From Gemmatimonadota bacterium (lineage in GTDB: Bacteria > Gemmatimonadota > Gemmatimonadetes > Gemmatimonadales > Gemmatimonadaceae): DNA of 64,000 bases. The stretch spans positions 369,174 to 433,173 of the forward strand of contig PLCA01000003.1 of NCBI GenBank assembly GCA_003134685.1. Direction: 5' to 3'. The notes below the pieces were generated by a model, which did not search any database, was not told the DNA's origin, and saw nothing but the letters and a program-made list of their open reading frames with translations. The stretch's first letter is position 1, and each line of letters opens with the position of its first letter. A program made the translations under genes and the position numbers. Positions 4,217 to 21,712 of the stretch are shown here, in pieces.

Positions 4217-4572
4217 GACCGCATTCAGTACTCGTAGCAATCGCCGCTGTGAGCATCAGCGTGACCTACGCCAGTCGATTCGCGCACGCGTCAACGCCGA
4301 GTCAGGACCCGCCAGGCAAGGCTCCGTACGAGGACAACTGTCGGAAATGCCACGGCGTGCGCGGCGTCGCACCGAAAACGATGAAGGCCAAGTTCCCGAA
4401 GATCGTGACGTTCGACGCGGAGTTCTTCGAAAAGCACTCCAAAGATTCGATTGTGACGATACTGACGAAAGGCAAAGACGAGGACATGAAGTCCTTCAAG
4501 GGCAAGCTGAGTCACGAGCAGATGGAGGCGGTGGCCGACTACATCAAGCTGTTCGGCCAGAAGGAAAAGTAG
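4213..4572 (+). CDS. Small periplasmic monoheme cytochrome c
   Basis: A 119-residue class I-like cytochrome c with an N-terminal signal sequence (about residues 1-27), a single C-R-K-C-H heme site at 43-47 and a likely distal Met near M92, followed by the usual C-terminal helix (A-D-Y-I). GTG at 4213 is preceded by AAAGGAG at 4201-4207 and overlaps the stop of the cytochrome b gene, showing translational coupling. It is the natural electron acceptor of the bc complex and could deliver electrons to the decaheme cytochrome encoded next, or work in the opposite direction. The specific partner is inference. Confidence 0.92.
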   Translation: MRPHSVLVAIAAVSISVTYASRFAHASTPSQDPPGKAPYEDNCRKCHGVRGVAPKTMKAKFPKIVTFDAEFFEKHSKDSIVTILTKGKDEDMKSFKGKLSHEQMEAVADYIKLFGQKEK

Positions 4573-4634
4573 AAGGTCGGCGCGGACCCGCGCCGGCGAG
4601 GGGAATCCCTCAAGGAAATAGCACGGAGGGGATG

Positions 4635-5564
4635 ATGCGCATCGGTTCGAGACCGCTGTTCGGAATTGCCCTGCTGGCCCTGTGCGCCAGCGGCGCGGGC
4701 GGGCAGGTCACGGCCATGCCCCCCGCCGACTCGCTGCCGCCGGGATACGCGGGGTCAGCAAGCTGCCTGGACTGTCACGCAAAGGAACATGCGGTCTTTG
4801 CCGGCACCGTGAAGGGACGTCTGCTCGTCGGTCGCCCCCGCGACAAGCACGAGGCGCTCGGGTGCGAAAGCTGTCACGGCCCGGGCAAAGCTCACGAGCA
4901 ATCGGGAGGCGAAGAGCTTGGCCAGCTGATCACGTTCAGCCCGCGATCCAAGACGAGCGTCAAGGCGAGGGATGCCGTCTGCCTCAGCTGCCACGAGAAG
5001 ACTGCGCGCGTGATGTGGGCGGGAAGTGTGCACGAGACCCGGGACGTGGCATGCACGAGCTGCCACACGCTGATGCACTCGGTCTCCGACCGGGCAAACC
5101 TCCGGCGGGAGACTGCGCCCGCGACGTGCGGGCGATGTCACCAGCAGCGCGTGGCGCAGATGCTGCGCGCATCCCATATGCCGGTGGGCGAGGGAAAGAT
5201 GGACTGTACCTCGTGTCACAACCCGCACGGCTCACCGAATGAGAAACTGCTGATCGCGAGCTCGGTCAACGAGGTGTGCTTCGCCTGCCACGCCGAGAAA
5301 CGCGGGCCGTTCATGTGGCAGCATCCGCCAGTGATTGAAAGCTGCTCCAACTGTCACGATCCCCATGGCACCGCCCACGAGAAGCTCCTCAAGGTTCCCA
5401 AGCCACGTCTCTGCCAGCAGTGCCACGATCCCACGTCACATCCCACTCAGCCGCGTGGAATTACCGCCGTCGACGCGCGGTTCATTCAGGGACGCCAATG
5501 CGTCGACTGCCACTTCAACATTCACGGATCCAACCATCCATCGGGCAAATACTTCACCCGTTAG
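4635..5564 (+). CDS. DmsE/MtrA-family decaheme cytochrome c
   Basis: A 309-residue exported protein with exactly ten C-x-x-C-H sites spread over the whole mature chain, several in the C-x-x-C-H-[ND]-P-H-G form seen in DmsE, MtrA and PioA. The length is right for that family. A signal peptide of about 24 residues precedes it. ATG at 4632 is followed by a second ATG at 4635; the GGAGG at 4625-4629 is better spaced for 4635. In known systems this protein sits inside or against an MtrB-type porin and carries electrons across the outer membrane. Here the porin gene follows by 20 bp, which strongly supports that role. No MtrC-like outer-surface cytochrome is next to it. Confidence 0.95.
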   Translation: MRIGSRPLFGIALLALCASGAGGQVTAMPPADSLPPGYAGSASCLDCHAKEHAVFAGTVKGRLLVGRPRDKHEALGCESCHGPGKAHEQSGGEELGQLITFSPRSKTSVKARDAVCLSCHEKTARVMWAGSVHETRDVACTSCHTLMHSVSDRANLRRETAPATCGRCHQQRVAQMLRASHMPVGEGKMDCTSCHNPHGSPNEKLLIASSVNEVCFACHAEKRGPFMWQHPPVIESCSNCHDPHGTAHEKLLKVPKPRLCQQCHDPTSHPTQPRGITAVDARFIQGRQCVDCHFNIHGSNHPSGKYFTR

Positions 5565-5584
5565 CCCCTGACCGGGGAGCTGCC

Positions 5585-7975
5585 ATGCACGTCAGTACAC
5601 ACAACTTCGGAATTGTTGTCGCGGCCGGCATCGTCATCGCCGTAAGCTCCGTCGCGGCCCAGGTTCCAGCGAAGCCGGCAGATACCGTCGCAAAAACCTC
5701 CGCGGACACGGTCAAGAAGGCTGCGGACACGACCGCGAAGCCCACCGCGGACACGGTCAAGAAGGCTGCGGACACGACCGCGAAGCCCACCGCGGATACG
5801 ATCAAGAAGCCGGCGGATACGACGAAGACGCCCGCCACTAGCGCGGCCGCTCTGGCTGCCGCGGCGCTGGCGGGGAGCTCGCTGCCTTCGCTCGGTCCAA
5901 ATACCGTGATTTTTGGCGGCGAGCTCGGTGAGCGCGCCTTCATCGACAGACCCAACCACCTCGACTTCGCCAAGCTCGTCGAGTACAAGGCGGTGCCGAC
6001 CGGACCCGTCCTTCTCAACCTCCTGCTCGGCTTTACCGGGTCGGACAGCATCACGGTCTTTCAGCTCAGTGGAACCAATTTTGGCCAGCGTGACCAGGCG
6101 GTCAGGCTGAGGGCCAACAGCCCCGGCGTGTTCGACGTCCAGGTCCGGTGGGACCGCATCCCGCACACGTTCAGTACCAACGCGCGGTCATTTGGCAGCC
6201 AACCGGCTCCCAATATTTTCGTGTTGCCGAATCCCCGGCCCGACACGGCCACATGGAACCCGAGCGCACCATACCTCGCGCCCGTGCGGACATTGTGGAA
6301 CGCGGTGAAGGTCGCCGCAGCCTTCACCCCGTCACCGCACTGGGACTTGCGAACCGAGTACACTGGGATCGAAAAATCCGGCTCACGGCCGATGGGGATG
6401 GCGATGGGAGGACCGGGAAACAACTTCCGCGAGATTCTCGAGCCCATCGACCAGACGATGCAGGACCTCAAGTTCACCGAGGGATACTCGAACCAGAGAT
6501 TCCAGGTGATCGGATCCTACGACTACTCAGCGTTCCTCAACACCTTCGCGTCAGTAACCTCTGACAATCCACTGCTGTCCACAGATCAGGCGACTACGGG
6601 CTCGTCGCGCGGACGGACCGCGCTCGCTCCAAGCAACCAGGCCCACACTGGCGTCGTGACTGCCGCTCTCAGCCTGCCGTACCGCACGCGACTCAACGCC
6701 AGCGGCAGCTACAGTCTCTGGATTCAGAACCAGCCCTTCATCCCCGCGACGATCAACAGCGCTATCGTCGCAGACCTGTCGCAGATTCCCCAGAGCCTCG
6801 GCGGGCATTCGGGGACTTCGTCCCTCTATGTATCGGGTGTGAGCAGGCCGATCACTCCGCTCACCCTCACGGCGCGCCTTCGAACCTTCAGTTTTCGTGA
6901 CAACGTGGACGTGGCAAGCATGCCTGTCCTCATCATCAACGACCGTTCGGTGGCGGCGGCCGAAGACCGGGACAATCTGCCCTTCACGAGAAGAAACGCC
7001 GACGCCGCCGCAACGTGGAGACTCGAGACCGCGGTGCCGCTGACTTTCTCCGCCGGATACGGCTGGGAGAACTGGAAGCGAAGCGAGGCGCGCAACGTCG
7101 CCGATCTGCGGGAGGGATCGCCTCACTTCAGCCTCGACGTTGGTGTGTTCGACTGGATGTCCCTCAGGTCGAGCTACACGACAGGACGGCGGCGGATTCA
7201 TGGAGAGTACATCCAGAACACCACCGATGACCAGCCACTGCATCGTCGCTTCGACCAGGCGGATCGCGATCGTGAGAGAACGAATCTGCTGGCGACGGTG
7301 ACCCCACTCGATCAGCTGACGATGTCGGGGAGCTGGACGGTCGGACACGACGAGTACCCGCACTCCGCGTACGGATTGCAGAGTGACAGGAACAACATGG
7401 AGGAAGGCGACGTCTCGTGGGCCCTCACGGATCGATTCTCCGTGGACGGCAGCCTGACGAACGAGAGGTTTCTCACGCGGCTCCGCTCCCAGTACCGCGC
7501 CACCGGTCAGCTGAACAACCCTACCTATGATTGGGTCGCCAACAACCACGACGAGATAAGGACGGTGAGCGCGGGGTTCCGGGCGGCATTCGTTCCGGAT
7601 CGGTTCGAGGCGGGGGGGCGCCTGGACGCCTCGCGGGCAAAGTTCCGAATGGCGACTTTCAACCCGCTCACTCCCACCGGCGGAACCGCGACGCAGAATT
7701 TCAACGCCACTGCGTCGGACCTTCCGGAGGTGACGCAGAAGTTTCAGCCGATGAACCTCTTCGCGACTTATTTCGTGACGCCCGAATGGGGGATGACGGT
7801 CCGGTACCAAACCGAGAGGTGGGCACAGAACGACTTCAGGACGCTCGGACTACAACCGTCGACAGGAAGCGCCATTTTCCTGGGGAACAATCTCAACGAT
7901 TACAACGCGAAGTACATCACGATCTCGGTGAGCTACCGGCCACGCCTGCGCAGAGTCGCTCGTCCGGCGTTGTAG
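5585..7975 (+). CDS. MtrB/PioB-family decaheme-associated outer-membrane porin
   Basis: A 796-residue protein with a signal peptide (cleavage near A-A-Q, residue 25), a disordered Lys/Thr/Asp/Ala-rich linker of about 60 residues made of three near-identical 15-residue units, then a long beta-strand-rich domain with the W-D-R-I-P-H motif typical of MtrB/PioB. The barrel runs to the C-terminus with alternating hydrophobic and polar residues. I see no cysteine, so the N-terminal C-x-x-C of some MtrB proteins is absent. ATG at 5585 has GGGGAG at 5574-5579. The protein would form the outer-membrane sleeve for the decaheme cytochrome encoded just upstream. Confidence 0.93.
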   Translation: MHVSTHNFGIVVAAGIVIAVSSVAAQVPAKPADTVAKTSADTVKKAADTTAKPTADTVKKAADTTAKPTADTIKKPADTTKTPATSAAALAAAALAGSSLPSLGPNTVIFGGELGERAFIDRPNHLDFAKLVEYKAVPTGPVLLNLLLGFTGSDSITVFQLSGTNFGQRDQAVRLRANSPGVFDVQVRWDRIPHTFSTNARSFGSQPAPNIFVLPNPRPDTATWNPSAPYLAPVRTLWNAVKVAAAFTPSPHWDLRTEYTGIEKSGSRPMGMAMGGPGNNFREILEPIDQTMQDLKFTEGYSNQRFQVIGSYDYSAFLNTFASVTSDNPLLSTDQATTGSSRGRTALAPSNQAHTGVVTAALSLPYRTRLNASGSYSLWIQNQPFIPATINSAIVADLSQIPQSLGGHSGTSSLYVSGVSRPITPLTLTARLRTFSFRDNVDVASMPVLIINDRSVAAAEDRDNLPFTRRNADAAATWRLETAVPLTFSAGYGWENWKRSEARNVADLREGSPHFSLDVGVFDWMSLRSSYTTGRRRIHGEYIQNTTDDQPLHRRFDQADRDRERTNLLATVTPLDQLTMSGSWTVGHDEYPHSAYGLQSDRNNMEEGDVSWALTDRFSVDGSLTNERFLTRLRSQYRATGQLNNPTYDWVANNHDEIRTVSAGFRAAFVPDRFEAGGRLDASRAKFRMATFNPLTPTGGTATQNFNATASDLPEVTQKFQPMNLFATYFVTPEWGMTVRYQTERWAQNDFRTLGLQPSTGSAIFLGNNLNDYNAKYITISVSYRPRLRRVARPAL
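5702..5836 (+). repeat. Three 45-bp tandem repeats inside the porin gene
   Basis: Units at 5702-5746 and 5747-5791 appear identical, and a third diverged unit spans 5792-5836. The repeats are in frame and encode a Lys/Asp/Thr-rich 15-residue unit just after the signal peptide. Such arrays change length by slippage, so the linker length may vary between strains. Confidence 0.9.
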
Positions 7976-8137: not shown

Positions 8138-8794
8138 ATGGTCAACGGCCAGCCCGATCGAGCGATCAACGTCATTGGTCTTGGCAAGCGCTTCGGCGCA
8201 CGATGGGTGCTGCGCGGAGTTTCGCTCGAAGTGCGGCGCGGCGAAGCCGTGGCGCTGCTGGGACCAAACGGCAGCGGGAAGAGCACGGTGCTGCGGATCC
8301 TCGGGACACTGCTCAACCCGAATTCCGGCTCCGCCTCTGTCAACGGGCTCGATGTCGTGCGCGACGCCAGCGGTGTACGCGGTCAGGTCGGATACCTGGC
8401 GCACACCCCCGGTCTCTACGACGACCTTACGGCACGCGAGAATCTGCGGTTCGCCGCAGACATGCTGGGGTTGCCATACGCGGCGGTAGAGAGCAGCCTC
8501 GAACGCGTTGGCTTGGCGCACGTAGCGGGTGACCGTGTGCGCGGATTTTCTGCTGGAATGCAGCGCCGGCTGGCGCTCGCCCGTCTCGTCCTGCAAGATC
8601 CCCGGGTTCTTCTGCTGGACGAGCCGTACAGCAATCTCGACGCCGATGGTGTCGAGCTCATGAACTCCGTGATCGCCGGCATCGTACGATCCGGCGGTGC
8701 GCTGCTCGTGGCGCTGCACGAGCTCGCCCCTGCCAAAGCGATGCTCGATCGCACGCTCACTCTCGTCGAAGGGCGTATCGAAGGGGCGCACTGA
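8138..8794 (+). CDS. ccmA: Heme exporter ATP-binding subunit CcmA
   Basis: A 218-residue ABC ATPase. The Walker A motif G-P-N-G-S-G-K-S-T lies near 42-50, the signature is F-S-A-G-M-Q-R-R-L-A-L-A-R, and Walker B is V-L-L-L-D-E-P. With CcmB and CcmC it releases holo-CcmE during System I cytochrome c maturation. I chose ATG at 8138; the frame also allows TTG at 8081, and no clear ribosome site separates the two. The stop overlaps the ccmB start by one base (TGATG). A TATATT at 8075-8080 is a possible -10 box for the ccm operon, but no matching -35 is evident. Confidence 0.92.
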   Translation: MVNGQPDRAINVIGLGKRFGARWVLRGVSLEVRRGEAVALLGPNGSGKSTVLRILGTLLNPNSGSASVNGLDVVRDASGVRGQVGYLAHTPGLYDDLTARENLRFAADMLGLPYAAVESSLERVGLAHVAGDRVRGFSAGMQRRLALARLVLQDPRVLLLDEPYSNLDADGVELMNSVIAGIVRSGGALLVALHELAPAKAMLDRTLTLVEGRIEGAH

Positions 8795-9480
8795 TGACGT
8801 GGCGCGATGATTGGCGCCGAGTGCGCGCCATCGCGAGAAAGGATGTCACCACTGAGCTCCGCGCCAAGGCGGGGTTCAACAGCGTAGCGTCGCTCGGCGT
8901 GACGATCCTTATTCTTCTCGGGCTGGCGCTCGGTCCCGATGCAGAAGCGCTGCGCAATGCGTCGGTCGGGGCGGTGTGGCTCGCCACGCTGTTCTCGGGC
9001 GTGCTCGCTTTCAATCGGTCCTTCCAGGTTGAGCTGGAGAGCGGTGCCCTCGAACCGCTGCTGCTGTATCCCGGGCCGCGCTGGACGATTTTTGCCGGAA
9101 AGCTGCTCGGCAACCTGATCTTTCTGACGCTGATGGTGGCCATCGTGGTGGCCGCTGGCATCGTGTTGTTCGGGGTGCAGATCCCCGCTGATTGGCCGTC
9201 GTTGATCGGCGTCCTGGCGCTCGGCGTCGTGGGGCTGGTAGTGCTGGGCACGTTCTACGCGTCGATGGCGAGTCGCAGCCGCGCGCGCGAAGTCCTGCTT
9301 CCGCTGCTGCTTTTTCCGATGCTGGTGCCGGTCCTGCTCGCCGCGACAACGGCATCAAAGGCGCTGCTGGGCGCGGACGTGATGCACGAAGCAGGCGCCT
9401 GGATTCGACTACTCGTGGCCTACGACCTAGTTTTCCTGATAGCCACGTTCATCGCGTTTGAACACGTCATTGAAGCCTGA
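8794..9480 (+). CDS. ccmB: Heme exporter membrane subunit CcmB
   Basis: A 228-residue inner-membrane protein with about six TM helices and the CcmB-type segments L-x-x-G-x-L-E-P-L-L-L-x-P in the first third and L-P-L-L-L-F-P-x-L-V-P-V-L near residue 170. It forms the CcmABCD complex that loads heme onto CcmE and releases it. The start codon overlaps the ccmA stop by one base. Length and helix number match the family. Confidence 0.93.
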   Translation: MTWRDDWRRVRAIARKDVTTELRAKAGFNSVASLGVTILILLGLALGPDAEALRNASVGAVWLATLFSGVLAFNRSFQVELESGALEPLLLYPGPRWTIFAGKLLGNLIFLTLMVAIVVAAGIVLFGVQIPADWPSLIGVLALGVVGLVVLGTFYASMASRSRAREVLLPLLLFPMLVPVLLAATTASKALLGADVMHEAGAWIRLLVAYDLVFLIATFIAFEHVIEA

Positions 9481-9487
9481 AGGCCAA

Positions 9488-10207
9488 TTGAACTCTTCCT
9501 CCGACCGTTTGCGGGACCCCAGCGCCGCGCGCCCGCCGCGCACCAGCATCTGGCTGGCGTTCGTCAGCATCGGCGCCGTGATCGTGGCGCAGACGTACGC
9601 CATCCTGACGTCTCCCGCCGAAGGCGACATGGGGCATCTGCAGAAAATCATGTACGTGCACGTCCCGGCAGCGTGGATGACGTTCCTCTCGTTCTTTGTC
9701 GTGTTCGCCTTCAGCGTGCGCTATCTGTGGCAACGCAGGGAAAACGACGACCTGCTCGCAGCTTCAGCGGCCGAAGTCGGTGCGACGTTCAACGGCCTGA
9801 CGCTGATGCTGGGAATGATCTGGGGGCGCCCTGCCTGGGGGGTATGGTGGGTATGGGACGCGCGCCTGACGTCCACGCTGGTGCTATTCCTGATCTTCGT
9901 CGGCTATCTTGCGCTTCGTGCGTTCACCGACGACACGCAACAGAAGGCGCGATGGAGCGCGGCGGTCGGCGCGATCGGCGCGCTCAACGTTCCGATCGTG
10001 TACATGTCGGTGAAGTGGTGGCGTACACTCCATCAGCCGCCGTCGAGCCCGGCCACCCTCGACCCCAGGTACACGATGGGGCTGCGGCTGAATGCGATCG
10101 CGCTGCTGCTGGTTATGATCTATTTCATCCGTAAGCGCTACGAGATCGCCCGTCTCGAGCGAGCGACCGAGCACATGGCCGAGGCGGCCGCAATGGGAGG
10201 CAAGTGA
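9488..10207 (+). CDS. ccmC: Heme handling protein CcmC (CcsA-related)
   Basis: A 239-residue six-TM protein with the tryptophan-rich periplasmic loop W-G-x-x-x-W-G-V-W-W-V-W-D-A-R-L-T-S that binds heme, and flanking conserved histidines in Y-V-H-V-P-A-A-W and W-W-R-T-L-H-Q-P. It presents heme to CcmE. I place the start at TTG 9488 because GAAGG at 9479-9483 is well spaced before it; in-frame TTGs at 9458 and 9470 lie within ccmB. Its stop overlaps the next small gene (GTGA). Confidence 0.93.
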   Translation: MNSSSDRLRDPSAARPPRTSIWLAFVSIGAVIVAQTYAILTSPAEGDMGHLQKIMYVHVPAAWMTFLSFFVVFAFSVRYLWQRRENDDLLAASAAEVGATFNGLTLMLGMIWGRPAWGVWWVWDARLTSTLVLFLIFVGYLALRAFTDDTQQKARWSAAVGAIGALNVPIVYMSVKWWRTLHQPPSSPATLDPRYTMGLRLNAIALLLVMIYFIRKRYEIARLERATEHMAEAAAMGGK

Positions 10208-10365
10208 CGACAGCTGCGTCGAATCTGAATTTCATCATTGCGGCGTACGCGGTGACGTGGATCGTCATTCTCGGATATCTATGGCGCCTTGTCCGAAAGG
10301 GTGGGCGCGCCCGCGCCGACTATGAGCGCATGGCGCAACAGCGCAGCGGGGAGAAGAGCCAATGA
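10204..10365 (+). CDS. ccmD: Small heme-exporter subunit CcmD
   Basis: A 53-residue protein translated from GTG at 10204, overlapping the ccmC stop, and ending at 10363-10365 where it overlaps the ccmE start. It has a short N-terminus, one TM helix (about residues 10-29, A-A-Y-A-V-T-W-I-V-I-L-G-Y-L-W) and a positively charged tail with R-x-D-Y-E-R, the usual CcmD plan. CcmD stabilises the CcmABC complex and is needed for release of holo-CcmE. Position and topology make the call; sequence conservation in this family is low. Confidence 0.85.
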   Translation: MTTAASNLNFIIAAYAVTWIVILGYLWRLVRKGGRARADYERMAQQRSGEKSQ

Positions 10366-10802
10366 AACGCGGGTGGATAATTGGAGGTGCGGCCGTCATC
10401 GTCGCGGTGTTCGCGTGGCTGCTGTTCGGCGGCCTGCAGAAGAACGTGGTGTTCTTCCTGACGCCAAAGGAACTGTTGGCGAAGGGCACCGACGGCGTCG
10501 GCGTGCCGGTGCGCCTCGGCGGACAGGTGAAGCCGGGCTCGGTGAAGTGGAACGCGCAGACGCTCGATCTGCGTTTCATTGTTACCGACGGCGCACGAGA
10601 GGTGCCGGTGCACTCGACTGGTGCTCCCCCGCAAATGTTCCGCGACGGCATGGGCGTCGTCGTCGAGGGACGCTTCGGTACGGCCGGAGTGTTCGAGGCA
10701 ACGGGCCTGATGGTGAAGCACTCGAACGAGTACCGTCCGCCCAAACCGGGCGAGGAAGCGCACGAGAAGTACAAGACGCTCATACAGCAGTCGAGCCAGT
10801 GA
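10362..10802 (+). CDS. ccmE: Periplasmic heme chaperone CcmE
   Basis: A 146-residue protein with an N-terminal TM anchor (about residues 5-23) and an OB-fold domain. The heme-attaching H120 and the following tyrosine lie in V-K-H-S-N-E-Y, matching the family H-x-x-x-Y motif. It carries heme covalently from CcmC to CcmF. ATG overlaps the ccmD stop, and its own stop overlaps the GTG of ccmF, so the whole block is translationally coupled. Confidence 0.94.
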   Translation: MKRGWIIGGAAVIVAVFAWLLFGGLQKNVVFFLTPKELLAKGTDGVGVPVRLGGQVKPGSVKWNAQTLDLRFIVTDGAREVPVHSTGAPPQMFRDGMGVVVEGRFGTAGVFEATGLMVKHSNEYRPPKPGEEAHEKYKTLIQQSSQ

Positions 10803-12808
10803 TCGACCTGCTCGCGCACAATGCGCTGTTGGTATCGCTGGCGGCGGTGGCATTCGGAGCAATCCTCACTCCCGTAACGATCCGCACTGGCAGGCGGGAG
10901 TGGCTTCAGCTGGTGTACGGCGCGGTCTACGCGAACTTCCTGCTGGTGAGCATCGCGGCGGTGTCGATGGTTGTGGCGCTCGTCACGCATGACTTCTCAG
11001 TGTCGTACGTGGCGCAGGTGGGCAGCCGCTCCACGCCACTGCTCTTCACAGTCATTTCGCTCTGGGGCGCACTCGAAGGCTCGATTCTCTTCTGGGCCTG
11101 GGTGCTGGGCCTCTACTCGGCAGCCGTCGTGGCGCTTCACCGTCGCCGCCTCGGAAATCTCGTTCCGTACGCGGTGATGACATTGCTCGCGGTCGCCGCG
11201 TTCTTCGCGATTCTGCTCGTGGGCCCCGCCGATCCGTTTCTGCCCGTGTTCCCGGTACCAGCCGACGGACCGGGTCCGAACACGTTGCTGCAGAACCACT
11301 ATCTCATGGCGGTTCACCCGCCGTTGCTGTACCTCGGCTACGTTGGAATGTCGGTGCCCTTCGCATTCGCCCTCGGCGCCATTTTCTCCAACGAGGCCGC
11401 ATCGAACGACTGGTCCATTCTTTCGCGGCGCTGGATGCTCACGTCCTGGGGATTTCTCTCCGCCGCGATCATCGCCGGCATGTGGTGGTCGTACGAGGTG
11501 CTCGGCTGGGGCGGCTACTGGGCGTGGGATCCGGTCGAGAACGCGTCGTTTCTTCCGTGGCTCACGGCGACAGCCTATCTCCATTCGGTGATGGTGCAGG
11601 AGCGGCGCAACATGCTCCGGCTGTGGACTCTGAACCTGTGCGTCGCGACGTTCGTGCTGACCATCCTCGGGACGTTCCTGACCCGCTCGGGAATCCTTTC
11701 GTCCGTCCACGCGTTCACGACGGGCGCGATCGGCTACTACTTTCTCGCGTTCATCGCGATCGTCCTCGTGACCACGCTGATGCTGGTTGCCGGCAACTCG
11801 GAACGCATTCAGACGAAGGGGAAACTGGGCGGCGCCGCGTCTCGCGAAACGGTGTTCCTGCTGAACAATCTCTTCCTCACCGCGGTAATGCTGACGGTGC
11901 TCGTCGGCACACTGTATCCGCTCGTCGCCGAAGCAGTGCGCGGCGTCAAAGTCAGCGTCGGGGTGCCGTTCTTCAACCGGATGGCACTCCCAGCGATGGT
12001 GTCGCTCCTCTTCCTCATGGGCGTGGGGCCCGCGCTTCCATGGGGCAGCACTACGTGGGCCGATGCTCGCAAGCGACTGTATCCACCGGGCATCGCCGCG
12101 ATGATCCTTGGCGCGATTGCGGTGATCGCGGGAGCACGCAGCGTCTACGCGATTCTCGCGTTCGCGTTCGTCGGGTACGCGGCGATGAGCAACGTGCGGG
12201 AGTTCTGGATCGGCATGCGCGCCCGGCACCGCGCGCACGGCGAGAGCTGGCCGACGGCACTCGTGCGACTGGTCGCCGGCAATCGCCGCCGCTACGGTGG
12301 ATACGTTGCGCACATTGGCGTGCTGTTGATCGCGCTGGGAATCACGGCATCGTCGACGTTTCGCTCAGAGCGCGAGGCGACGCTCACGCCGGGCCAGACG
12401 CTCACCGTCGCCGGCCATACGGTGCGACTGAAGAACCTGTGGGGCCGAGAGGAACCGCAGCGGTCGGTGATCGGCGCGACGATGGATGTAGTCGGCAAGA
12501 ACGGTGCAATCATTGGAACCATGGAACCGCGAATGAACTACTACCGGGTGTCGGACCAGCCGGTGCCGACGCCCGCCGTGCGCAGCAGTATTACGGGCGA
12601 CCTCTACGTCAATCTCATGGCCTTCGAATCGAGCGGCGCCAACGCGACGGTGAAGGTGATCGTCGAGCCATTCGTTCCGTGGATCTGGTTCGGCGGGCTA
12701 GTGATTGTGATCGGAGCGATCATCGGCCTGGGCTACGGCGGTCGGAGCGCGACCGCGCCTGCGCCCGCCACGAATCCTGCTCCGAGTATCGCGAGCGCGG
12801 ATTCATGA
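10799..12808 (+). CDS. ccmF: Cytochrome c heme lyase subunit CcmF
   Basis: A 669-residue polytopic protein with about 14-15 TM helices and the conserved heme-binding loop G-W-G-G-Y-W-A-W-D-P-V-E-N-A-S around residue 240. It ligates heme from CcmE to apocytochrome C-x-x-C-H motifs together with CcmH. GTG at 10799 overlaps the ccmE stop; the longer frame upstream is antisense-free read-through of ccmD/E and can be ignored. The window encodes cytochromes with some C-x4-C-H sites, so the substrate range of this lyase is of interest. Confidence 0.95.
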   Translation: MIDLLAHNALLVSLAAVAFGAILTPVTIRTGRREWLQLVYGAVYANFLLVSIAAVSMVVALVTHDFSVSYVAQVGSRSTPLLFTVISLWGALEGSILFWAWVLGLYSAAVVALHRRRLGNLVPYAVMTLLAVAAFFAILLVGPADPFLPVFPVPADGPGPNTLLQNHYLMAVHPPLLYLGYVGMSVPFAFALGAIFSNEAASNDWSILSRRWMLTSWGFLSAAIIAGMWWSYEVLGWGGYWAWDPVENASFLPWLTATAYLHSVMVQERRNMLRLWTLNLCVATFVLTILGTFLTRSGILSSVHAFTTGAIGYYFLAFIAIVLVTTLMLVAGNSERIQTKGKLGGAASRETVFLLNNLFLTAVMLTVLVGTLYPLVAEAVRGVKVSVGVPFFNRMALPAMVSLLFLMGVGPALPWGSTTWADARKRLYPPGIAAMILGAIAVIAGARSVYAILAFAFVGYAAMSNVREFWIGMRARHRAHGESWPTALVRLVAGNRRRYGGYVAHIGVLLIALGITASSTFRSEREATLTPGQTLTVAGHTVRLKNLWGREEPQRSVIGATMDVVGKNGAIIGTMEPRMNYYRVSDQPVPTPAVRSSITGDLYVNLMAFESSGANATVKVIVEPFVPWIWFGGLVIVIGAIIGLGYGGRSATAPAPATNPAPSIASADS

Positions 12809-13398
12809 ACTGGAAGCGCGCCGCTATCGCCGTGCTCGCCGCGGCGCCGCTCATTGCGCTGTTCGCCTATGGATTTTCCCGCGACCCGGCTGAGATTCCC
12901 TCTCCACTTCCAGGACACGCCGCACCGGAGTTCACGCTGGCGGTTTTCGCTCCCGGCGAGGGCCCGCTCATGCGGCCGCTCGGTGATACTGTCCGACTTG
13001 GCGCGCTCGTGGGCAAAGTGGTGGTCGTGAATTTCTGGGCGTCGTGGTGCGGGCCTTGTCGCGCCGAGCACGCCGGGCTGAGCGAGACGGCCCGGCAGTA
13101 CGTCGGCAAGCCAGTGCGGTTCATTGGTGTGCTTTACAACGACGGCGCAGCGGCGGCAAGCGACTGGATCACGCAGATGGGCGGCCAGAGCTACCCGGCC
13201 GTGATGGACCTCGGCTCAGTGACGGCCATCGACTATGGAGTCTACGGCGTGCCCGAGACATACATCGTGGACGCGAGCGGACGCATCGCGTACAAGTACG
13301 TGGGACCCATTCCGCCGAGCGTGTTGCGCCAATGGATTGATTCCTTGCTTCCGAATGCGACGGCCACCGGAATGATGCCGCTCGCCGTCGTCCGGTGA
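12805..13398 (+). CDS. ccmG: Thiol-disulfide reductase CcmG (DsbE)
   Basis: A 197-residue membrane-tethered thioredoxin-fold protein. It has an N-terminal TM helix (about residues 7-23), the active site W-C-G-P-C with cysteines near 82 and 85, and the cis-proline region Y-G-V-Y-G-V-P-E-T. It keeps the apocytochrome heme-site cysteines reduced for ligation. ATG at 12805 overlaps the ccmF stop and the GTG of ccmH overlaps its own stop. Confidence 0.94.
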   Translation: MNWKRAAIAVLAAAPLIALFAYGFSRDPAEIPSPLPGHAAPEFTLAVFAPGEGPLMRPLGDTVRLGALVGKVVVVNFWASWCGPCRAEHAGLSETARQYVGKPVRFIGVLYNDGAAAASDWITQMGGQSYPAVMDLGSVTAIDYGVYGVPETYIVDASGRIAYKYVGPIPPSVLRQWIDSLLPNATATGMMPLAVVR

Positions 13399-13838
13399 AA
13401 CGGCACGCGCTCGCGACGCTGGCTGTCGTGGCCGGTGCGCTGTGCGCTGCGCGGCCCGCGTCCGCACAAGGCGTCGAAGCGCGTTCACGCCCTTCGGTAG
13501 CGACGGCCGCGGATTCCGCGCTCGAGGCGCAAACGACGGCTGTCGCGTCGACACTCCGGTGCCCGGTGTGCCAGGGCGAATCCCTCCAGGACTCGCCGTC
13601 TGATCTCGCGCGGCAGATGCGGGCCGTCGTGCGTGACAAATTGCGTGCAGGCGAAACGCCGGACGAGGTCAGGGCCTATTTTGTCTCCAAGTACGGCGAG
13701 TGGATCCTCCTCGAGCCCACCATGACAGGCCTCAACATTCTGCTTTATTTTATTCCGGTTCTCCTCGTGATCGGAGGACTGGTGCTCGTCGCGTTTCTGG
13801 TGCGGCGGTGGACCGCACCAGAGTCAACCACACCTTAG
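13395..13838 (+). CDS. ccmH: Cytochrome c maturation protein CcmH (CycL-like)
   Basis: A 147-residue protein with a signal peptide, the L-R-C-P-V-C-Q motif (C56, C59) in a three-helix domain, a G-E-W-I-L-L-E-P end of that domain, and a C-terminal TM helix (about residues 115-137). It reduces or presents apocytochrome thiols to CcmF. GTG at 13395 overlaps ccmG. Only the short CcmH form is present; a separate TPR subunit (CcmI) may be supplied by the next gene. Confidence 0.94.
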   Translation: MKRHALATLAVVAGALCAARPASAQGVEARSRPSVATAADSALEAQTTAVASTLRCPVCQGESLQDSPSDLARQMRAVVRDKLRAGETPDEVRAYFVSKYGEWILLEPTMTGLNILLYFIPVLLVIGGLVLVAFLVRRWTAPESTTP

Positions 13839-14784: not shown

Positions 14785-16500
14785 ATGATTTCGCCCCCCA
14801 CGAGCCTACAACACAGCGCTATGCACGACCCGTCTGTCACTGCGCTTGTTTGCAACACCCTACGGCACGGAGTAGTTCCCACCCGTACCGCCCGCTCTTC
14901 TACACTACAAAACCAGGTGCGCGGGGCGCCATCGCGCGCACGAGCCTACGGTCTGCTGACAGCAGCGTTCATCACCGCTGTCTCGCTCGCCGGGTGTGCC
15001 AGCGACAAAATCGTCTTCCGTGATCGGGGCCCATTCAATCCCCCGCCTGACGCCGCCTCAGGGTTCCTTGGCTATTTCGACGCGGCGACGAAGCAGACGA
15101 CGTGCGGCAATTGCCACGTCGACTTCCAGGCCAGCTGGAAAGTGACCAAGCACGCCGGTGCCTATAACGCGGTGACCACAAGCTCGGTCAAGACTCCAGA
15201 GTGTTACAGCTGCCATTCGCTGACGGGCAACGGCAACGCTGCGAGCGGCACGGTGGCGGGACACGATAAAGTCGCGGACTCCGCGTATTTCGATGTCCAG
15301 TGCGAGAGTTGTCACGGCGCGGGCCTTCAACACGTTGAAGGCGTCGGCCAGGGAACGCTGATAAGGCCGCTCGCGAAACTGAGCATGGCCGGCACCGGCA
15401 ACTGCGGCGACTGCCATTCCGGAACGCACCAGCCGTTCGTGGAAGAGTGGAGTGCGTCACGACACGCGACCATAAACGCATCGCGCGTCTCGAACGCTAC
15501 GTGCGCCGGCTGCCACGAAGGCCGCGCGGCGCTCTTACGGTGGGGCGTCGATGTGAACTTCGTCGAGAAGGCCAATCCGACGGACTATCAGCCGGTGGCG
15601 GCCTGCGCCGTCTGCCACGATCCTCACGGTTCAGGCAACCCGAGCCAGCTGCGCTTTCCGGTGACATCCCAGGATCCCGACCAGAATCTCTGCATGAAAT
15701 GCCATAACCGGCGCAGCGAACCGGAGATTGGAACGAGCTCGCCTCATGCTCCGCAGGGCGCAATGCTGCTGGGGTTTGCCGGCTGGCGGCCGCCAGGCTT
15801 TACATACGACACTGCACGCATCTATGGGTCGCATGCAACGACGCTGAACCCGAAGCTCTGCGCCGGGTGCCACATCGCCAAGTTCACCGTGACCGACCCG
15901 GCGACCGGCGGCTTTGCGTTCCAGGCGACGGGTCACCTGATGCGGCCGATTCCGTGCCTCGACGCCGCGGGCAAGCCGACGGCCGACAAGACATGTCCGT
16001 ACACGGAAAGCGCCCGGTCGTGGCAGACATGCGCGGCTTCGGGCTGTCACGCCAACGCCGCGGTGGCTGTCTCGGCGTTCACAACCGTCCGCGCCCGGAT
16101 GAAGTTCTTCGCCGATCAACTCTGGGTGGACTCCAACGGCAGCGGCTCGCTCCAGGCGTCGCCGACTGACGGTGGTCTTCTGGCCCAGGTAAAAGCCTCG
16201 AGACCAACCGAATGGAGCAACACGGACCTCGTCATCACACCGGCCGAGGGCGCTGAATTCAACGCGCGGCTCTGCGGCGAGTTTGGCCAAACCAACGCCG
16301 ACAACTCGAAGGGCGTTCACAATCCGTTCCTGTGTGAGGCGTTGATGATCGCCACGATCAATTACATCACGACCTACTACGCATTGCCGGCTGCGTCACC
16401 TAGTGTTCAGGCCGGCATGACCGGTCCGATCGGCGGCAAGTTCAATCGTTCGATGCATGTTTCTCGCGCACCCCTGGTAGGTGAACCGATCTCGCAGTAA
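14785..16500 (+). CDS. Nine-heme c-type cytochrome lipoprotein
   Basis: Up to 571 residues with eight C-x-x-C-H sites and one C-x4-C-H (C-A-A-S-G-C-H) site. A hydrophobic run ending S-L-A-G-C (C71 in the longest frame) is a lipobox, so the mature protein should be lipid-anchored, probably at the outer membrane. The first seven hemes are clustered; the eighth follows a loop, and the C-terminal 150 residues have no heme site. The start is uncertain: ATG 14785, ATG 14821 and GTG 14920 are in frame, and GTG 14920 would give an ordinary 26-residue lipoprotein signal. It heads a cluster with two larger multiheme proteins and a porin. Confidence 0.88.
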   Translation: MISPPTSLQHSAMHDPSVTALVCNTLRHGVVPTRTARSSTLQNQVRGAPSRARAYGLLTAAFITAVSLAGCASDKIVFRDRGPFNPPPDAASGFLGYFDAATKQTTCGNCHVDFQASWKVTKHAGAYNAVTTSSVKTPECYSCHSLTGNGNAASGTVAGHDKVADSAYFDVQCESCHGAGLQHVEGVGQGTLIRPLAKLSMAGTGNCGDCHSGTHQPFVEEWSASRHATINASRVSNATCAGCHEGRAALLRWGVDVNFVEKANPTDYQPVAACAVCHDPHGSGNPSQLRFPVTSQDPDQNLCMKCHNRRSEPEIGTSSPHAPQGAMLLGFAGWRPPGFTYDTARIYGSHATTLNPKLCAGCHIAKFTVTDPATGGFAFQATGHLMRPIPCLDAAGKPTADKTCPYTESARSWQTCAASGCHANAAVAVSAFTTVRARMKFFADQLWVDSNGSGSLQASPTDGGLLAQVKASRPTEWSNTDLVITPAEGAEFNARLCGEFGQTNADNSKGVHNPFLCEALMIATINYITTYYALPAASPSVQAGMTGPIGGKFNRSMHVSRAPLVGEPISQ

Positions 16501-18549
16501 GTGGTGATCGGCATACAGTTCACTGGCGTCGTCCGCGTTCTGCGCTCGGCGGCGGCGCTTCAGCAGGCGCACGCCGCGCCCGCGGACTCGATCGTCGTCC
16601 AGTCGCCGCTCCCCGGCGGCATCGCACACTTCGTCCGGTTTCTGCTGAACACAGTCCCGCAGTGGGTGCAAATCGGCGGGGTTGTCGTCGGGGCCGCTGT
16701 TGCCGCGTTCATCCTCTGGTTCTTGTTCGTGCGGCGCGTTGCGATACGCGGTTGGCTGACCTCGCGCACGAGCGGCGTCAAGTTGGCGCTCGCGGCGATA
16801 GCCGTCGTGCTGATTACCGGCATCGCCGCCATGGGCACCGTGACCTGGAACTATACCCAGCACTCGAACGACTTCTGCGTCGGGTGTCACATCATGAACC
16901 CGGCGTTCCAGAAGTTCGGCGACGCGACCAACAAGCACGCCAAGCTATCGTGTCACGACTGCCATCAGCAGTCTCTGTACGCAAGCGCGCGGCAGGTTTA
17001 CCTGTGGGTCGCGGAGCGACCCGAGAAAATAGGCAAGCACGCCAAAGTGCCGAACAAGGTCTGCGAGAACTGCCACATCACGAAGGACACGGCAACCTGG
17101 CAACATGTCGCGTCGACAGCAGGACACCGCGTGCATCTGGAGTCGCACTCGAGCGCGCTCAAGAACATTCAGTGCATAACGTGTCACGGGGTCGAGCTGC
17201 ATCGGTTCGCGTCGGTGAACGAGACGTGCGGCCAGAGCGGCTGCCACAAGGCGAGCGAAACCAACATCGCGCTCGGCAAAATGGCGGAGCAGACGGACCT
17301 CCATTGCATCAGCTGCCACGCGTTCACGGCCAACGTTCCCTTACTCGCAACGCGTGACTCGGCACGGGGCACCCTGGTACCCGGGCAGACTGAGTGTCTC
17401 GCGTGCCACAAGATGCAAAAGGTTCTCGCAGACTTCGATGAAGCTAAGGACCCTCATGGCGGAAAGTGCGGAACCTGCCACAATCCGCACCTGCAGAAGA
17501 CGGCGGCGGCGGCGGTGAAGTCCTGCGCGACGGCGGGCTGTCACGCGAATTGGCGCGACACGCCCTTCCACGTTGGCGCGAGCCACAAGCAGATCGCCTC
17601 GCAGTGCCTCACCTGCCACGTACCGCATGCCGCGAGGGTTGACGCGAGCAATTGCGAAGGATGTCACCTGAGCGTGCGGAGCCATGGACGGTTGCGGCCG
17701 CCCCTTCCCTTCGACACGACCAAGGCGCTGCGACGCGTGGGCACGAGCACGGCTCCTCCCTCGCCCGATGCGGCCTATGCGGATTCCCGGCATTCGGTGA
17801 CGATAGCGTCGGTCCGCAGCAGCGGTCCGTCGGCGGAATCCGGCGATGATGCGACGCTCCTCGAGCGGGACGATGTACGTCCCGCGACGAACTACGCCGG
17901 CGCGCCTCTCTCCCGAGCGCCGCCCGCAACGGCCGACCCCTTTCCTCACGCGAGGCACGCAAAGCTTGCGTGCCTCGTCTGTCATGTGACTGGGACGGGG
18001 GTTGGCCTCCTCACGTTCAAGCCACCGCGCGGCTGCGCCATCTGCCACCATCAGGCGCCAACGTCGGGCAAGTGCGCGACGTGCCACGCGACGAGCGAGT
18101 ACACGGCCGTGAAGCACACGACGATGACGGTAACGGTGCCCGGCCACGACCCCCGTCCGCGGCCGGTAGACTTTTTTCACGCGGTGCACACCAAGCGCGC
18201 ATGCCTGGAGTGCCATACGACACCAGTGACGTTGGTGCCTTCGACGGCGCAGGCGCAGTGCAAGGATTGCCACAGCGACCACCACGCCGCCGGCCGTAAC
18301 TGCTCGGCGTGTCACACGATCGCCGAGCCCAAGTTTGCGCATCGGACCCTCGAGACCGCGCACCAGCGCTGCGACGCGTGCCACACTGCGACGACGATCG
18401 CGGAGCTGACGCCGACGCGAAGCTTCTGCAGTACCTGCCACGCGGCAAAGGCAAAGGGGCATTACGACCAGAAGGAATGCAGCGTCTGCCACTTCCTCGC
18501 CGAACCCGGCGTCTATCGCTCGAGACTCGTCACGTCGCGGCCACAATGA
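16501..18549 (+). CDS. Membrane-anchored 20-heme cytochrome c with NapC/NirT-like N-terminus
   Basis: A 682-residue protein with two predicted TM helices (about 55-77 and 93-116) and 20 heme sites: 18 C-x-x-C-H and two C-x4-C-H. The first pair after TM2 (F-C-V-G-C-H ... S-C-H-D-C-H) looks like the quinol-oxidising module of NapC/NirT/CymA. Eleven hemes follow in the N-terminal half, then a Pro/Ser-rich linker of about 85 residues with no heme, then nine more. I infer that it takes electrons from menaquinol and carries them across the periplasm in one chain. GTG 16501 directly follows the previous stop, and the next gene overlaps its own stop by four bases. Confidence 0.9.
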   Translation: MVIGIQFTGVVRVLRSAAALQQAHAAPADSIVVQSPLPGGIAHFVRFLLNTVPQWVQIGGVVVGAAVAAFILWFLFVRRVAIRGWLTSRTSGVKLALAAIAVVLITGIAAMGTVTWNYTQHSNDFCVGCHIMNPAFQKFGDATNKHAKLSCHDCHQQSLYASARQVYLWVAERPEKIGKHAKVPNKVCENCHITKDTATWQHVASTAGHRVHLESHSSALKNIQCITCHGVELHRFASVNETCGQSGCHKASETNIALGKMAEQTDLHCISCHAFTANVPLLATRDSARGTLVPGQTECLACHKMQKVLADFDEAKDPHGGKCGTCHNPHLQKTAAAAVKSCATAGCHANWRDTPFHVGASHKQIASQCLTCHVPHAARVDASNCEGCHLSVRSHGRLRPPLPFDTTKALRRVGTSTAPPSPDAAYADSRHSVTIASVRSSGPSAESGDDATLLERDDVRPATNYAGAPLSRAPPATADPFPHARHAKLACLVCHVTGTGVGLLTFKPPRGCAICHHQAPTSGKCATCHATSEYTAVKHTTMTVTVPGHDPRPRPVDFFHAVHTKRACLECHTTPVTLVPSTAQAQCKDCHSDHHAAGRNCSACHTIAEPKFAHRTLETAHQRCDACHTATTIAELTPTRSFCSTCHAAKAKGHYDQKECSVCHFLAEPGVYRSRLVTSRPQ

Positions 18550-20045
18550 CGCGCATCCGCGCTCAGATTGCCGCGTCAATTCCGGTTGCCGCGTTCATCA
18601 TGGTGGCGGGCGCCGCGCCAGTAGCGGCGCAGGATTACCGTGTTCGTGTCGACGCGAGCGTACAGACCGTTTCGTTTCGCGGCCTCGTCTCCGACAGCAT
18701 CCCGGTCGCGTTGGTGGTGCCCTCCCCCGACGGTGGACTGGAGACGCCCGATGGCCACGCGGTTCGATGCGGCGCGGCCGATTACTGCTTTTTCTTTTTG
18801 CCGGGTCCCGTGTTGCGCGCGGTCCCGGTGACGACTTCCGCGAGTCTGGTCATGTGGGGCTTGGGCGTCGAGGGGCTCGCTCTCCACGCGACCGGCCGCC
18901 TCGTGGGAGATCTCGGACCCGATCGAGTGTGGCCAGGCACAGTTCCGTCGGGGCAGCTCATCGAGGGGTATCTCGAGTACCAGCGCTCAGTTTTCATCGC
19001 GCGCGCCGGGCGCCAGCTCGTCACGTCGCGACTGGAGCCGGTCGGCTTCGACGGCGGTCTGCTGAGGGTTCGGTGGGACAAGGCGTCGCTCGATTTCACG
19101 GGCTACGGCGGCTGGGGTCTCGGACAGGCAGCCGCTATTTCGGCGGCCAGCCCGGCACTCAATCCTCTCGATGAGTGGCGACCGAGCAACAGGCAGCTCG
19201 TAGCGGGTGCCGAGGCGGCGCTGCGCGTGAGGGATGTCGACGTCCGCGCGGAATACCGGCGAGAGATCGACCCGCAGAACCATTACTTCGTCTCGGAGCG
19301 TACGGCGTTCTCGCTAGGCGCAACCGTCGCGGCATTTCGGGCAGCCGGCGGACTCGACTACAACATTGCGGAAGGACATCTGGGGAGTGCCGATTTCGCG
19401 CTCACCTATTTGCACTCGCGATTTTCGGTGACGGCAGGAGCGCGCCGTTACCATCCCTACTTCAGCCTGTGGACGCTGTGGGGCGCATTCAGCCCGGTGC
19501 CGTACAACGCGGTGAACGTTTCCGCGCAGTTTCGGCCGACCGATTGGTTGTCGGTGAACGGACGGGGGGAACGGTACCACTACGATGACGCGAATGTCTC
19601 CACGGCGATCGTGCCGCAGCTCGAGGACCGGGGATGGCGCTCGAGCGCCGGCGCCACCGCGACGCTCAATACCCGCTGGACACTCGACGGCGATTTCGGC
19701 CTCGAGCACGGACCCGGCGCCGCGGCGCGGTTTGCCGACGGCACTGTGACTTACACGCCCAACGAGAAGTTCTCGTTCGATGTATACGGTGGGTCCTTGG
19801 CCCGGCCGCTGGAGCTGCGCTATCTCGACGCAACGAGCCGCTGGATCGGTGGTCGCGCCGAGTGGCAGGTCACTTCGCAGCAACGCATCTGGAGCGACCT
19901 TGCTCTCGTCAGCGATGATCGCCAGAGGCCCGACCCGAGCGCATCGTCCCTGGATCAGTTCCGAATCCGGGCGGGACTGACTGTCGCTTTCGGCTCCGGC
20001 GCCGATCGCACGCCCTTGCCTCCGGCTCACAGGACCGGACAATGA
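18546..20045 (+). CDS. Outer-membrane beta-barrel porin partner of the multiheme cytochromes
   Basis: A 499-residue exported protein with a signal peptide of about 30 residues (cleavage near V-A-A-Q) and a long series of amphipathic beta-strands to the end, with aromatic girdle residues, as in outer-membrane barrels. It lacks the W-D-R-I-P-H motif of MtrB/PioB and is much shorter than that family. It lies between the 20-heme and 18-heme genes, with four-base overlaps on both sides. By analogy with the porins of Geobacter-type porin-cytochrome conduits it should sheathe a cytochrome in the outer membrane. That role is inferred from context only. Confidence 0.82.
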   Translation: MTRIRAQIAASIPVAAFIMVAGAAPVAAQDYRVRVDASVQTVSFRGLVSDSIPVALVVPSPDGGLETPDGHAVRCGAADYCFFFLPGPVLRAVPVTTSASLVMWGLGVEGLALHATGRLVGDLGPDRVWPGTVPSGQLIEGYLEYQRSVFIARAGRQLVTSRLEPVGFDGGLLRVRWDKASLDFTGYGGWGLGQAAAISAASPALNPLDEWRPSNRQLVAGAEAALRVRDVDVRAEYRREIDPQNHYFVSERTAFSLGATVAAFRAAGGLDYNIAEGHLGSADFALTYLHSRFSVTAGARRYHPYFSLWTLWGAFSPVPYNAVNVSAQFRPTDWLSVNGRGERYHYDDANVSTAIVPQLEDRGWRSSAGATATLNTRWTLDGDFGLEHGPGAAARFADGTVTYTPNEKFSFDVYGGSLARPLELRYLDATSRWIGGRAEWQVTSQQRIWSDLALVSDDRQRPDPSASSLDQFRIRAGLTVAFGSGADRTPLPPAHRTGQ

Positions 20046-21712
20046 GCCTGCTCACGCGTGTCGGCTCAGCGTTGGCAGCCGGCCTGCTCGCGGCGGGAGC
20101 ATTGGTCGCCGCGCCTCACGTGAGCCGCGCGCCGCAAGAATCCTTTCCACACGACAAACACGCCAGCTTGTTTCCGCTCTGTGTCACGTGCCACGCGGGT
20201 GTCGTGGAGCCGGGACAGCCGATGTGGCCTGACCCGGCACGCTGCGCATCGTGTCACGATGGTGTGGTGAAGCCACGAGTCGCGTGGACGCCGCGAACCG
20301 GACCGCGCGCGGGCAATCTGCGGTTCACTCACGATGGACATAGCCGCGCGGCGACAGCGGGACACCCGGCTGACAGCGCGCTGATTCAAGACTGCTCCGC
20401 GTGTCATAACGTGGCCGGCGCACCGCGGATGACCGTGCAGCCCGCCGTCGTCGCGCAATGCCTGGATTGTCACGGGCTCAAGGCGCCCCATGTGGATGTC
20501 GCGAGCGCAGCGTGCGCGACCTGTCACGTGCGACTGACAGACGCTCCGAGCCTGACCCGTGATGTCATCGCGCAATTCCCCAAGCCCCAGTCGCACAACG
20601 CGCCGGATTTCCTGCTCGGCGGCCACGGCATGGCCGCACGAGTCACGGGCGTGGCCTCGGGCCCGAACGCCATCGCGGCCAGCTGCGCCACGTGCCACTC
20701 GAGAAACCTGTGCATCACGTGTCACGTGAACGCTCCCGAGTCGCCCGTGATTCTCGCGCTGGCGCTCGACGAACGGACGCCGGCCTACGCGGCCTCGCGG
20801 CTGGTGCCGCCGAGCCATTCAGCGACAGGCTGGTTGCGCGCGCACGGCCTGGAGGCGCAGCGATCGGGCGCGACGTGCGCGACCTGTCACACACGCGAGA
20901 GCTGCATGAGCTGCCACGTCGGCGTGCCGTCGCGGGTGATTGCGGCGCTCCCGGCCGCCGGTCCGGGACGCGCAGTGGGCGCGCGGTTGTCACGCGCGAA
21001 ACCATCAAGTCACACAGTGGACTTCAGGGAACGGCACGGGGCGGAGGCAAACGCCCACCCGATGACATGCGCGAGCTGTCACGCGCGCGAGAGCTGCACG
21101 ACCTGCCATGTCGGCGCGTTGCCGCGCGTCGTGGCAGCGATGCCGCCCGGCGCCACCGGACGCGTGGCGGGCCTGCTATGGGCACGCATAAAACCATCGA
21201 GCCACACGCTGGAATTCAGGGAGGGACACGGCCCCATCGCAAGCGCCAGCCCCAGGACGTGCGAGACCTGCCACGAGCGATCGATGTGTCTCGAGTGTCA
21301 TCGCCCTGACGGTAGCCGGCAATCTCGTTATCACCCTCAGAACTTCATCACGCGTCATCCAAGCTCGGCCTACGCGCGCGAAGCGAATTGCAGCGATTGC
21401 CACAACCCGGCGCAGTTCTGTCAGAGCTGCCACCAGCGGGCGGGACTCGTCGCGACCGCGCGAATCGGTCAAAAGGGTTACCACGACGCGTTTCGCGGCT
21501 TCAGCCTGGGACACGGACAGGCAGCGCGGCAGAGTCTTGAATCGTGCGCGTCGTGCCACGCCGAGCGTGACTGCACTGCGTGCCATTCCGCAGTGGGCGC
21601 CGGCTTCCGATTCAACCCACACGGGCCCGACTTCAATGCGGCGCGCATGCGATCAAAGAACCCATCCGTGTGCATCGCGTGTCATGGCCGGGCGATACCA
21701 GGAGGCCCTTGA
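20042..21712 (+). CDS. 18-heme periplasmic/outer-membrane cytochrome c
   Basis: A 556-residue exported protein with 18 C-x-x-C-H sites. From the sixth heme on, sites come in tight pairs (C-x-x-C-H-x4/5-C-x-x-C-H), for example C-A-T-C-H-T-R-E-S-C-M-S-C-H. Several pairs lie in repeats of about 60 residues containing K-P-S-S-H-T-x-x-F-R-E-x-H-G, so the gene grew by internal duplication. A Sec signal peptide (about residues 1-25) is present with no lipobox. It is coupled to the porin gene upstream and could be the cytochrome held by it. I cannot match it to a named family. Confidence 0.9.
   Translation: MSLLTRVGSALAAGLLAAGALVAAPHVSRAPQESFPHDKHASLFPLCVTCHAGVVEPGQPMWPDPARCASCHDGVVKPRVAWTPRTGPRAGNLRFTHDGHSRAATAGHPADSALIQDCSACHNVAGAPRMTVQPAVVAQCLDCHGLKAPHVDVASAACATCHVRLTDAPSLTRDVIAQFPKPQSHNAPDFLLGGHGMAARVTGVASGPNAIAASCATCHSRNLCITCHVNAPESPVILALALDERTPAYAASRLVPPSHSATGWLRAHGLEAQRSGATCATCHTRESCMSCHVGVPSRVIAALPAAGPGRAVGARLSRAKPSSHTVDFRERHGAEANAHPMTCASCHARESCTTCHVGALPRVVAAMPPGATGRVAGLLWARIKPSSHTLEFREGHGPIASASPRTCETCHERSMCLECHRPDGSRQSRYHPQNFITRHPSSAYAREANCSDCHNPAQFCQSCHQRAGLVATARIGQKGYHDAFRGFSLGHGQAARQSLESCASCHAERDCTACHSAVGAGFRFNPHGPDFNAARMRSKNPSVCIACHGRAIPGGP

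Follow-up and report, generated by a model that had tools for sequence, protein, structure and literature searches.

The open reading frame described here encodes a cytochrome with 20 heme sites that probably serves as a quinol dehydrogenase of the NrfH/NapC type, extended to a module of 11 hemes (N11) and flexibly tethered to a nine-heme module (C9) of an outer-membrane conduit, so that the tether replaces a diffusing carrier. It lies in a 64,000-nucleotide stretch of contig PLCA01000003.1 from a Gemmatimonadota bacterium, further referred to as the window. Its relatives were drawn from 395 Gemmatimonadota genomes. The positions of the relevant features are given in Table 1.

Table 1. Features of the 20-heme gene and its operon (window coordinates) and loci of the related 22-heme genes (coordinates within the locus).
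Feature	Position	Strand	Remarks
9-heme lipoprotein, candidate cell-surface cytochrome	14785..16500	+	LAGC lipobox
20-heme fused cytochrome, 682 aa	16501..18549	+	2 TM helices, N11, linker, C9
First TM helix, residues 54–77	16660..16731	+	hydropathy and AlphaFold
N11 module (profile A2)	16762..17679	+	TM2 and hemes 1–11
Second TM helix, residues 91–118	16771..16854	+	aligns with NrfH/NapC; hydropathy and AlphaFold
Heme 1 motif CxxCHxM	16876..16896	+	
Heme-free linker, 85 residues (394–478)	17680..17934	+	gap between the two module profiles
C9 module (profile A3)	17935..18522	+	nine hemes
Outer-membrane beta-barrel (predicted)	18546..20045	+	overlaps the 20-heme gene as ATGA
18-heme cytochrome, putatively periplasmic, candidate barrel-threading wire	20042..21712	+	overlaps the barrel gene as ATGA
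22-heme NapC-headed loci	L130 3758-5773; L131; L132; L133; L134; L136; L145		

The frame contains 18 CxxCH and two CxxxxCH sites (residues 243 and 342). All 40 cysteines of the protein are used in these motifs, and 31 histidines lie outside them. A chance origin of the motifs is excluded, since 2000 rounds of shuffling the protein gave 0.15 CxxCH on average and three at most. The sites form a group of 11 (residues 126–389) followed by a group of nine (residues 491–664). The preliminary description had listed 20 hemes in these two groups, separated by an 85-residue heme-free linker, and two transmembrane helices ahead of heme 1. The former is borne out by the motif count and the limits of the module profiles, and the latter by hydropathy and the AlphaFold model, which agree on the placement of both helices. 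The positive-inside rule suggests that the arginine-rich loop between them (residues 78–94) is cytoplasmic and that both ends of the protein are periplasmic. The GTG start at 16501 abuts the upstream stop codon, and the similarity of some relatives starts near residue 34; the true start codon is uncertain.

The kinship of TM2 and hemes 1–2 with the NapC/NirT family is well supported. The transmembrane anchor, the CxxCHxM motif at heme 1 and heme 2 of this family are all present. The NCBIfam NrfH profile matches the protein with the E-value 2.4e-8 (profile positions 4–61 of 138), and the PDB structure of NrfH, 2j7a, matches residues 105–157 with the E-value 5e-7. Among the N halves of 22 relatives, all 22 are matched by the NrfH profile TIGR03153 (best E-value 6e-15) and 13 by PF03264 (best 1.8e-8), so the profile searches do find the NapC/NirT similarity that had been proposed. 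It is weaker than claimed, though: PF03264 was absent from the Pfam scan of the 20-heme protein at E 0.1, and when the whole genome was searched with this profile, the protein ranked first with 23.6 bits (E-value 7.3e-5, profile positions 7–73 of 174), while the cut-off of 24.1 bits was passed by no protein of the genome. Instead of covering the tetraheme domain over the full profile length, the alignment stops at position 73 of 174, and the likeness ends after heme 2. Full membership in the NapC/CymA group was rejected because the profile match ends past that heme. Further downstream, hemes 6–11 of N11 resemble chain A of the Mtr complex structure 6r2q (E-value 1.3e-6), which we take to be MtrA, the chain being listed under an unrelated molecule name. 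The DmsE family matches the N halves of 18 of the 22 relatives.

The supply of axial histidines was counted over 69 full-length fusions. Eighteen non-motif histidines, nine per half, are invariant in all 69 sequences; His595 (68 sequences) is nearly so. In the C half, nine such residues stand against nine hemes, and the bis-histidine supply is therefore complete. In the N half, 11 hemes are accompanied by nine invariant histidines (ten in the first, smaller set) and by Met132 (62/69), His121 (62/69) and His268 (60/69); these counts would be consistent with heme 1 having a NrfH-like methionine or an open position. His152, found in 28 of 28 sequences of the first set, was dropped as an axial ligand since it is retained in 51 of the 69 sequences of the larger one.

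The phylum was searched with the profiles A2 and A3 in 395 genomes at E ≤ 1e-25. The best five and the best eight candidates per genome, respectively, were scored, and hence the counts are lower bounds. N11 was found in at least 80 genomes and C9 in at least 105. The two occur in one frame at least 72 times, in at least 71 of the 395 genomes, which share the architecture of the preliminary description. Exactly 20 motifs were counted in 69 of the 73 fused frames of the examined loci, and the other four (13, 13, 15 and 17 motifs) run into contig ends, which shows that the frame is not an accident of assembly. With 69 untruncated fusions among the relatives, a frameshift or an assembly chimera was ruled out. 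The linker, in contrast to the motif number, varies from 10 to 156 residues across 72 fusions, with just 10–14 residues in three of them. In the protein from the window it is rich in Ala, Ser, Pro, Arg and Thr and poorly conserved.

Both modules also exist separately. N11 lacks C9 in 13 places, several of them at contig ends, and was verified as an 11-heme frame in four loci (L047, L048, L058 and L158); on the contigs of two of the four (in genomes G203 and G295), C9 is also present as a gene of its own. C9 resides in frames of at most 320 residues in 27 places and in other frames in 26. The 26 separate C9 rows examined include 19 that lie clear of locus edges and have at least nine hemes. A lipoprotein and a barrel are found near the separate C9 in 12 loci, and in 11 of these C9, equipped with an N-terminal leader of its own, occupies the operon position of the fusion, the order being lipoprotein, C9, barrel. 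G203 has a separate C9 with a conduit and an N11 about 14 kb distant. Six genomes in which C9 is separate and a conduit is present (G091, G168, G216, G218, G221 and G307) yielded no N11 at E ≤ 1e-15, which means that the conduit can be fed otherwise.

In a quick tree of 114 C9 domains, the separate and fused forms are intermixed. The tree requires 18 changes between the two states if each of the 26 separate rows is included, contig-end fragments among them, and eight if only the 11 well-supported ones are kept. Repeated fusion or fission of C9 is likely, the number of events being soft, as 49 of the 111 inner forks are weak. Six short peptide patterns used for a search outside the phylum yielded 10 loci, nine from Gemmatimonadota and one from Myxococcales. 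The Myxococcales frame (L040 7716-10706; 997 aa, 35 CxxCH motifs) is weakly similar to the C9 part alone. In G168, the separate C9 (L054 5865-6422) is shortened to seven hemes by an in-frame TGA, which could be due to decay or a sequencing error. A frame from G133 (L055 3513-4703) has four heme motifs matching hemes 1–4 of N11; it may be a CymA-like protein with four hemes or an artefact of the frame.

The fused gene belongs to an operon with a conserved order: the 9-heme lipoprotein, N11+C9, an MtrB-like beta-barrel and a conduit cytochrome, the latter having 16 or 18 hemes in most relatives. Counting was limited to fused loci with enough flanking sequence. Downstream of the fusion lie the barrel (68 of 70 testable loci) and the 16/18-heme cytochrome (62 of 64), and upstream of it lies the 9-heme lipoprotein (53 of 57); a partner is missing in loci L067, L088, L093, L102, L112 and L114. 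The stop codon of the fusion overlaps the next start codon (ATGA) in 48 of 73 loci. The barrel encoded in the window is a predicted one. It has no Pfam or NCBIfam family and no match to the MtrB/PioB profiles (PF11854, TIGR03509). Its AlphaFold model (pLDDT 72.3, pTM 0.67) contains a signal helix and about 22 long strands, and the best fold match is MtrB (6r2q_B, E-value 1.6e-8), with modest TM-scores of 0.42/0.34 and many porins close behind. The multiheme lipoprotein and multiheme cytochrome that flank the barrel are conserved and are known here from their genes.

Two other clusters of the window concern cytochromes c. The one at 2714-7975 encodes a cytochrome b fused to a c-type domain, a decaheme cytochrome of the DmsE/MtrA family scoring above the cut-off, and a barrel matched by the MtrB/PioB profile (ORF 5420-7975); by gene content it resembles bc-linked porin–cytochrome clusters. 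Between both multiheme clusters, at 8794-13838, lie genes of cytochrome c maturation: CcmB, CcmC-like, CcmE, CcmF, thioredoxin and CcmH/NrfF-like.

The proposed role of the fusion builds on the heme motifs, the ligand supply, the modularity, the operon and the predicted barrel fold. Electrons from quinol would enter at heme 1 of the NrfH/NapC-type head, hop along the N11 hemes and move on to C9 upon contact between the two tethered modules. C9 would then contact the periplasmic face of the conduit formed by the lipoprotein, the barrel and the 16/18-heme cytochrome and hand the electrons over, and the whole path would serve extracellular electron transfer. The covalent tether would stand in for a diffusing carrier such as STC, FccA or PpcA. 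This replacement is supported by the loci where C9 is a gene of its own at the same operon position. No small multiheme carrier similar to PpcA or STC was seen in the genome of the studied bacterium with the paired CXXCH pattern at common spacings and PF14522. The paired pattern retrieved only the multiheme genes of the window, a five-heme protein, an eight-heme protein and two isolated places, and the single-CXXCH pattern was considered at the first 100 of its 270 places. The five-heme protein is QrcA-like and presumably ActA-like.

According to the preliminary description, the chain could span the periplasm without soluble carriers. The replacement of the carrier is supported by the separate C9 at the same position, whereas the single continuous wire is not supported, given the variable linker. 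As the linker has 85 residues here, is poorly conserved and ranges from 10 to 156 residues in the family, it is more likely that the two heme groups form tethered modules which have to dock. Moreover, each half has its own invariant ligands and occurs alone. A rigid 20-heme wire reaching across the periplasm is quite unlikely for these reasons, even though all hemes are in one chain and the three linkers of 10–14 residues imply that the modules can lie next to each other. In MtrA, ten hemes extend over 80 Å with edges 3.9–6.5 Å apart (available text of PMC7198977), and on this scale two such modules placed end to end would measure about 16 nm. The periplasm of Shewanella is quoted as 23.5 nm (PMC12114092, in the part available), which exceeds this length and is a further point against the wire; the periplasmic part of the conduit would therefore have to cover the rest. 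The AlphaFold prediction for the 20-heme protein (nine sequences) has a mean pLDDT of 34.8 and a pTM of 0.23 and is confident in the transmembrane helices only. A worm-like-chain estimate for the 85-residue linker, with an assumed persistence length of 4 Å, gave an rms distance of 51 Å, a contour length of 323 Å and an effective concentration of about 4 mM.

The direction of the flow is a separate matter. Relatives of NrfH and NapC are mostly quinol oxidisers, which makes the reverse route, where electrons from outside, e.g. from Fe(II), would travel via the conduit and C9 to quinone at the head, unlikely. In its favor, the direction is fixed by nothing in the sequence, and NapC-type heads such as CymA were proposed to be quinone reductases in Fe(II) oxidizers (PMC6295460, in the part available). 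It is highly improbable that the protein is a periplasmic distributor feeding soluble reductases, with the barrel operon serving uptake or some other task, since the barrel, the lipoprotein and the 16/18-heme cytochrome accompany nearly all fusions. What speaks for a distributor is a family of seven 22-heme frames of about 640–744 residues, each with a C9-like tail: their genes often adjoin those of a 9-heme protein and of a protein like cytochrome b, and no conduit-type barrel was seen in the examined stretch of six of the seven loci. These frames start NapC-like in the sequences inspected, and both of the two that were scanned score above the cut-off of PF03264 (1.9e-9 and 2.9e-7). C9 is thus not necessarily an adaptor dedicated to the conduit. 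Next to one of the 22-heme genes and a barrel lies a 951-residue frame with 19 heme motifs (L133 769-3621).

Two further frames, L056 4708-7920 (1071 aa) and L156 3-3194 (1064 aa), have 13 hemes and end in C9. Both combine a Tat-like leader and Fe-S motifs with C9 and a part of N11 (profile positions 201–303); the scan of the former revealed HmcB/HybA-like Fe-S and HmcC/NrfD-like membrane domains (NF008133, E-value 6.5e-130). Because the 22-heme NapC and the HmcB/HmcC(NrfD) heads carry a C9-like tail, C9 may be a standard plug, i.e. one type of tail that is fused to NrfH-like 11-heme, NapC-like 13-heme and HmcBC/NrfD heads and docks into an envelope conduit. We consider this generalization tentative, with a somewhat less than even chance of being correct; the barrel missing from the 22-heme loci argues against a plug specific for barrels. 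If it holds, the tether would be a third route across the periplasm beside diffusing and stacked carriers.

How electrons cross the periplasm of about 20 nm is an open question in well-studied systems. Diffusion or stacking is invoked there, and the heme chains, 3.5 nm long in FccA and 4.1 nm in CctA, could not bridge 23.5 nm as a static conduit, as stated in the available text of PMC12114092. The Gemmatimonadota offer a natural experiment, in that one operon occurs with a tethered carrier in some genomes and with a free one in related genomes, and comparison of the two would address whether carrier diffusion limits the flux.

No description of the N11+C9 fusion was found in the literature searched, mostly outside subscription journals and preprints. 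PMC13264449, in its examined text, groups porin–cytochrome clusters; cytochromes exceeding 20 motifs occur in some of these clusters, and ImcH or NapC/NirT genes in some. This fusion is absent from that text and from the examined text of PMC8067395, PMC12133095 and PMC10553843. Proteins of the CymA/NrfH/NapC type share with it a transmembrane helix, the CxxCHxM heme 1 and the subsequent second heme, where the profile and PDB matches are located. CymA has 4–5 hemes (PMC6295460, available part), whereas here there are two transmembrane helices, 20 hemes, a fused C9 and no likeness to the remaining tetraheme domain.

ImcH of Geobacter similarly combines a membrane-anchored NapC-like part and extra hemes in one chain; the available part of PMC6295460 gives it three transmembrane helices, a CX3CH first motif, 6–10 hemes and no adjacent mtrAB-type genes. 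The 20-heme protein differs in all these respects, having two helices, no CX3CH, 20 hemes and a barrel operon, and identity with ImcH was ruled out by the two helices seen in hydropathy and the lack of CX3CH. In CbcL, MtrH and MtoC, an inner-membrane quinone protein is fused to 3–23 heme motifs (same source, available part). Their head is a six-helix cytochrome b at the C-terminus, while here it is NapC-like and N-terminal; the absence of a cytochrome b match and the two helices ruled out identity with these proteins as well.

The MtrCAB and Pcc systems resemble the present operon in gene content, as each groups genes for a multiheme lipoprotein, a beta-barrel and a further multiheme cytochrome, the last being putatively periplasmic here, and the fold nearest to the barrel is that of MtrB, while hemes 6–11 of N11 resemble MtrA. 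Unlike these systems, the operon studied here has no MtrB_PioB match and a conduit cytochrome of 16 or 18 hemes, and it includes the quinol dehydrogenase, fused to a periplasmic cytochrome. Finally, the C9 profile matches the 16-heme HmcA (1z1n, E-value 1.8e-16), the nine-heme cytochrome c (1duw, 7e-11) and the 12-heme GSU1996 cytochrome (3ov0, 3e-11), and heme packing of the cytochrome c3/c7 type is expected in C9. Those three are separate soluble proteins, whereas C9 is fused to a membrane head.
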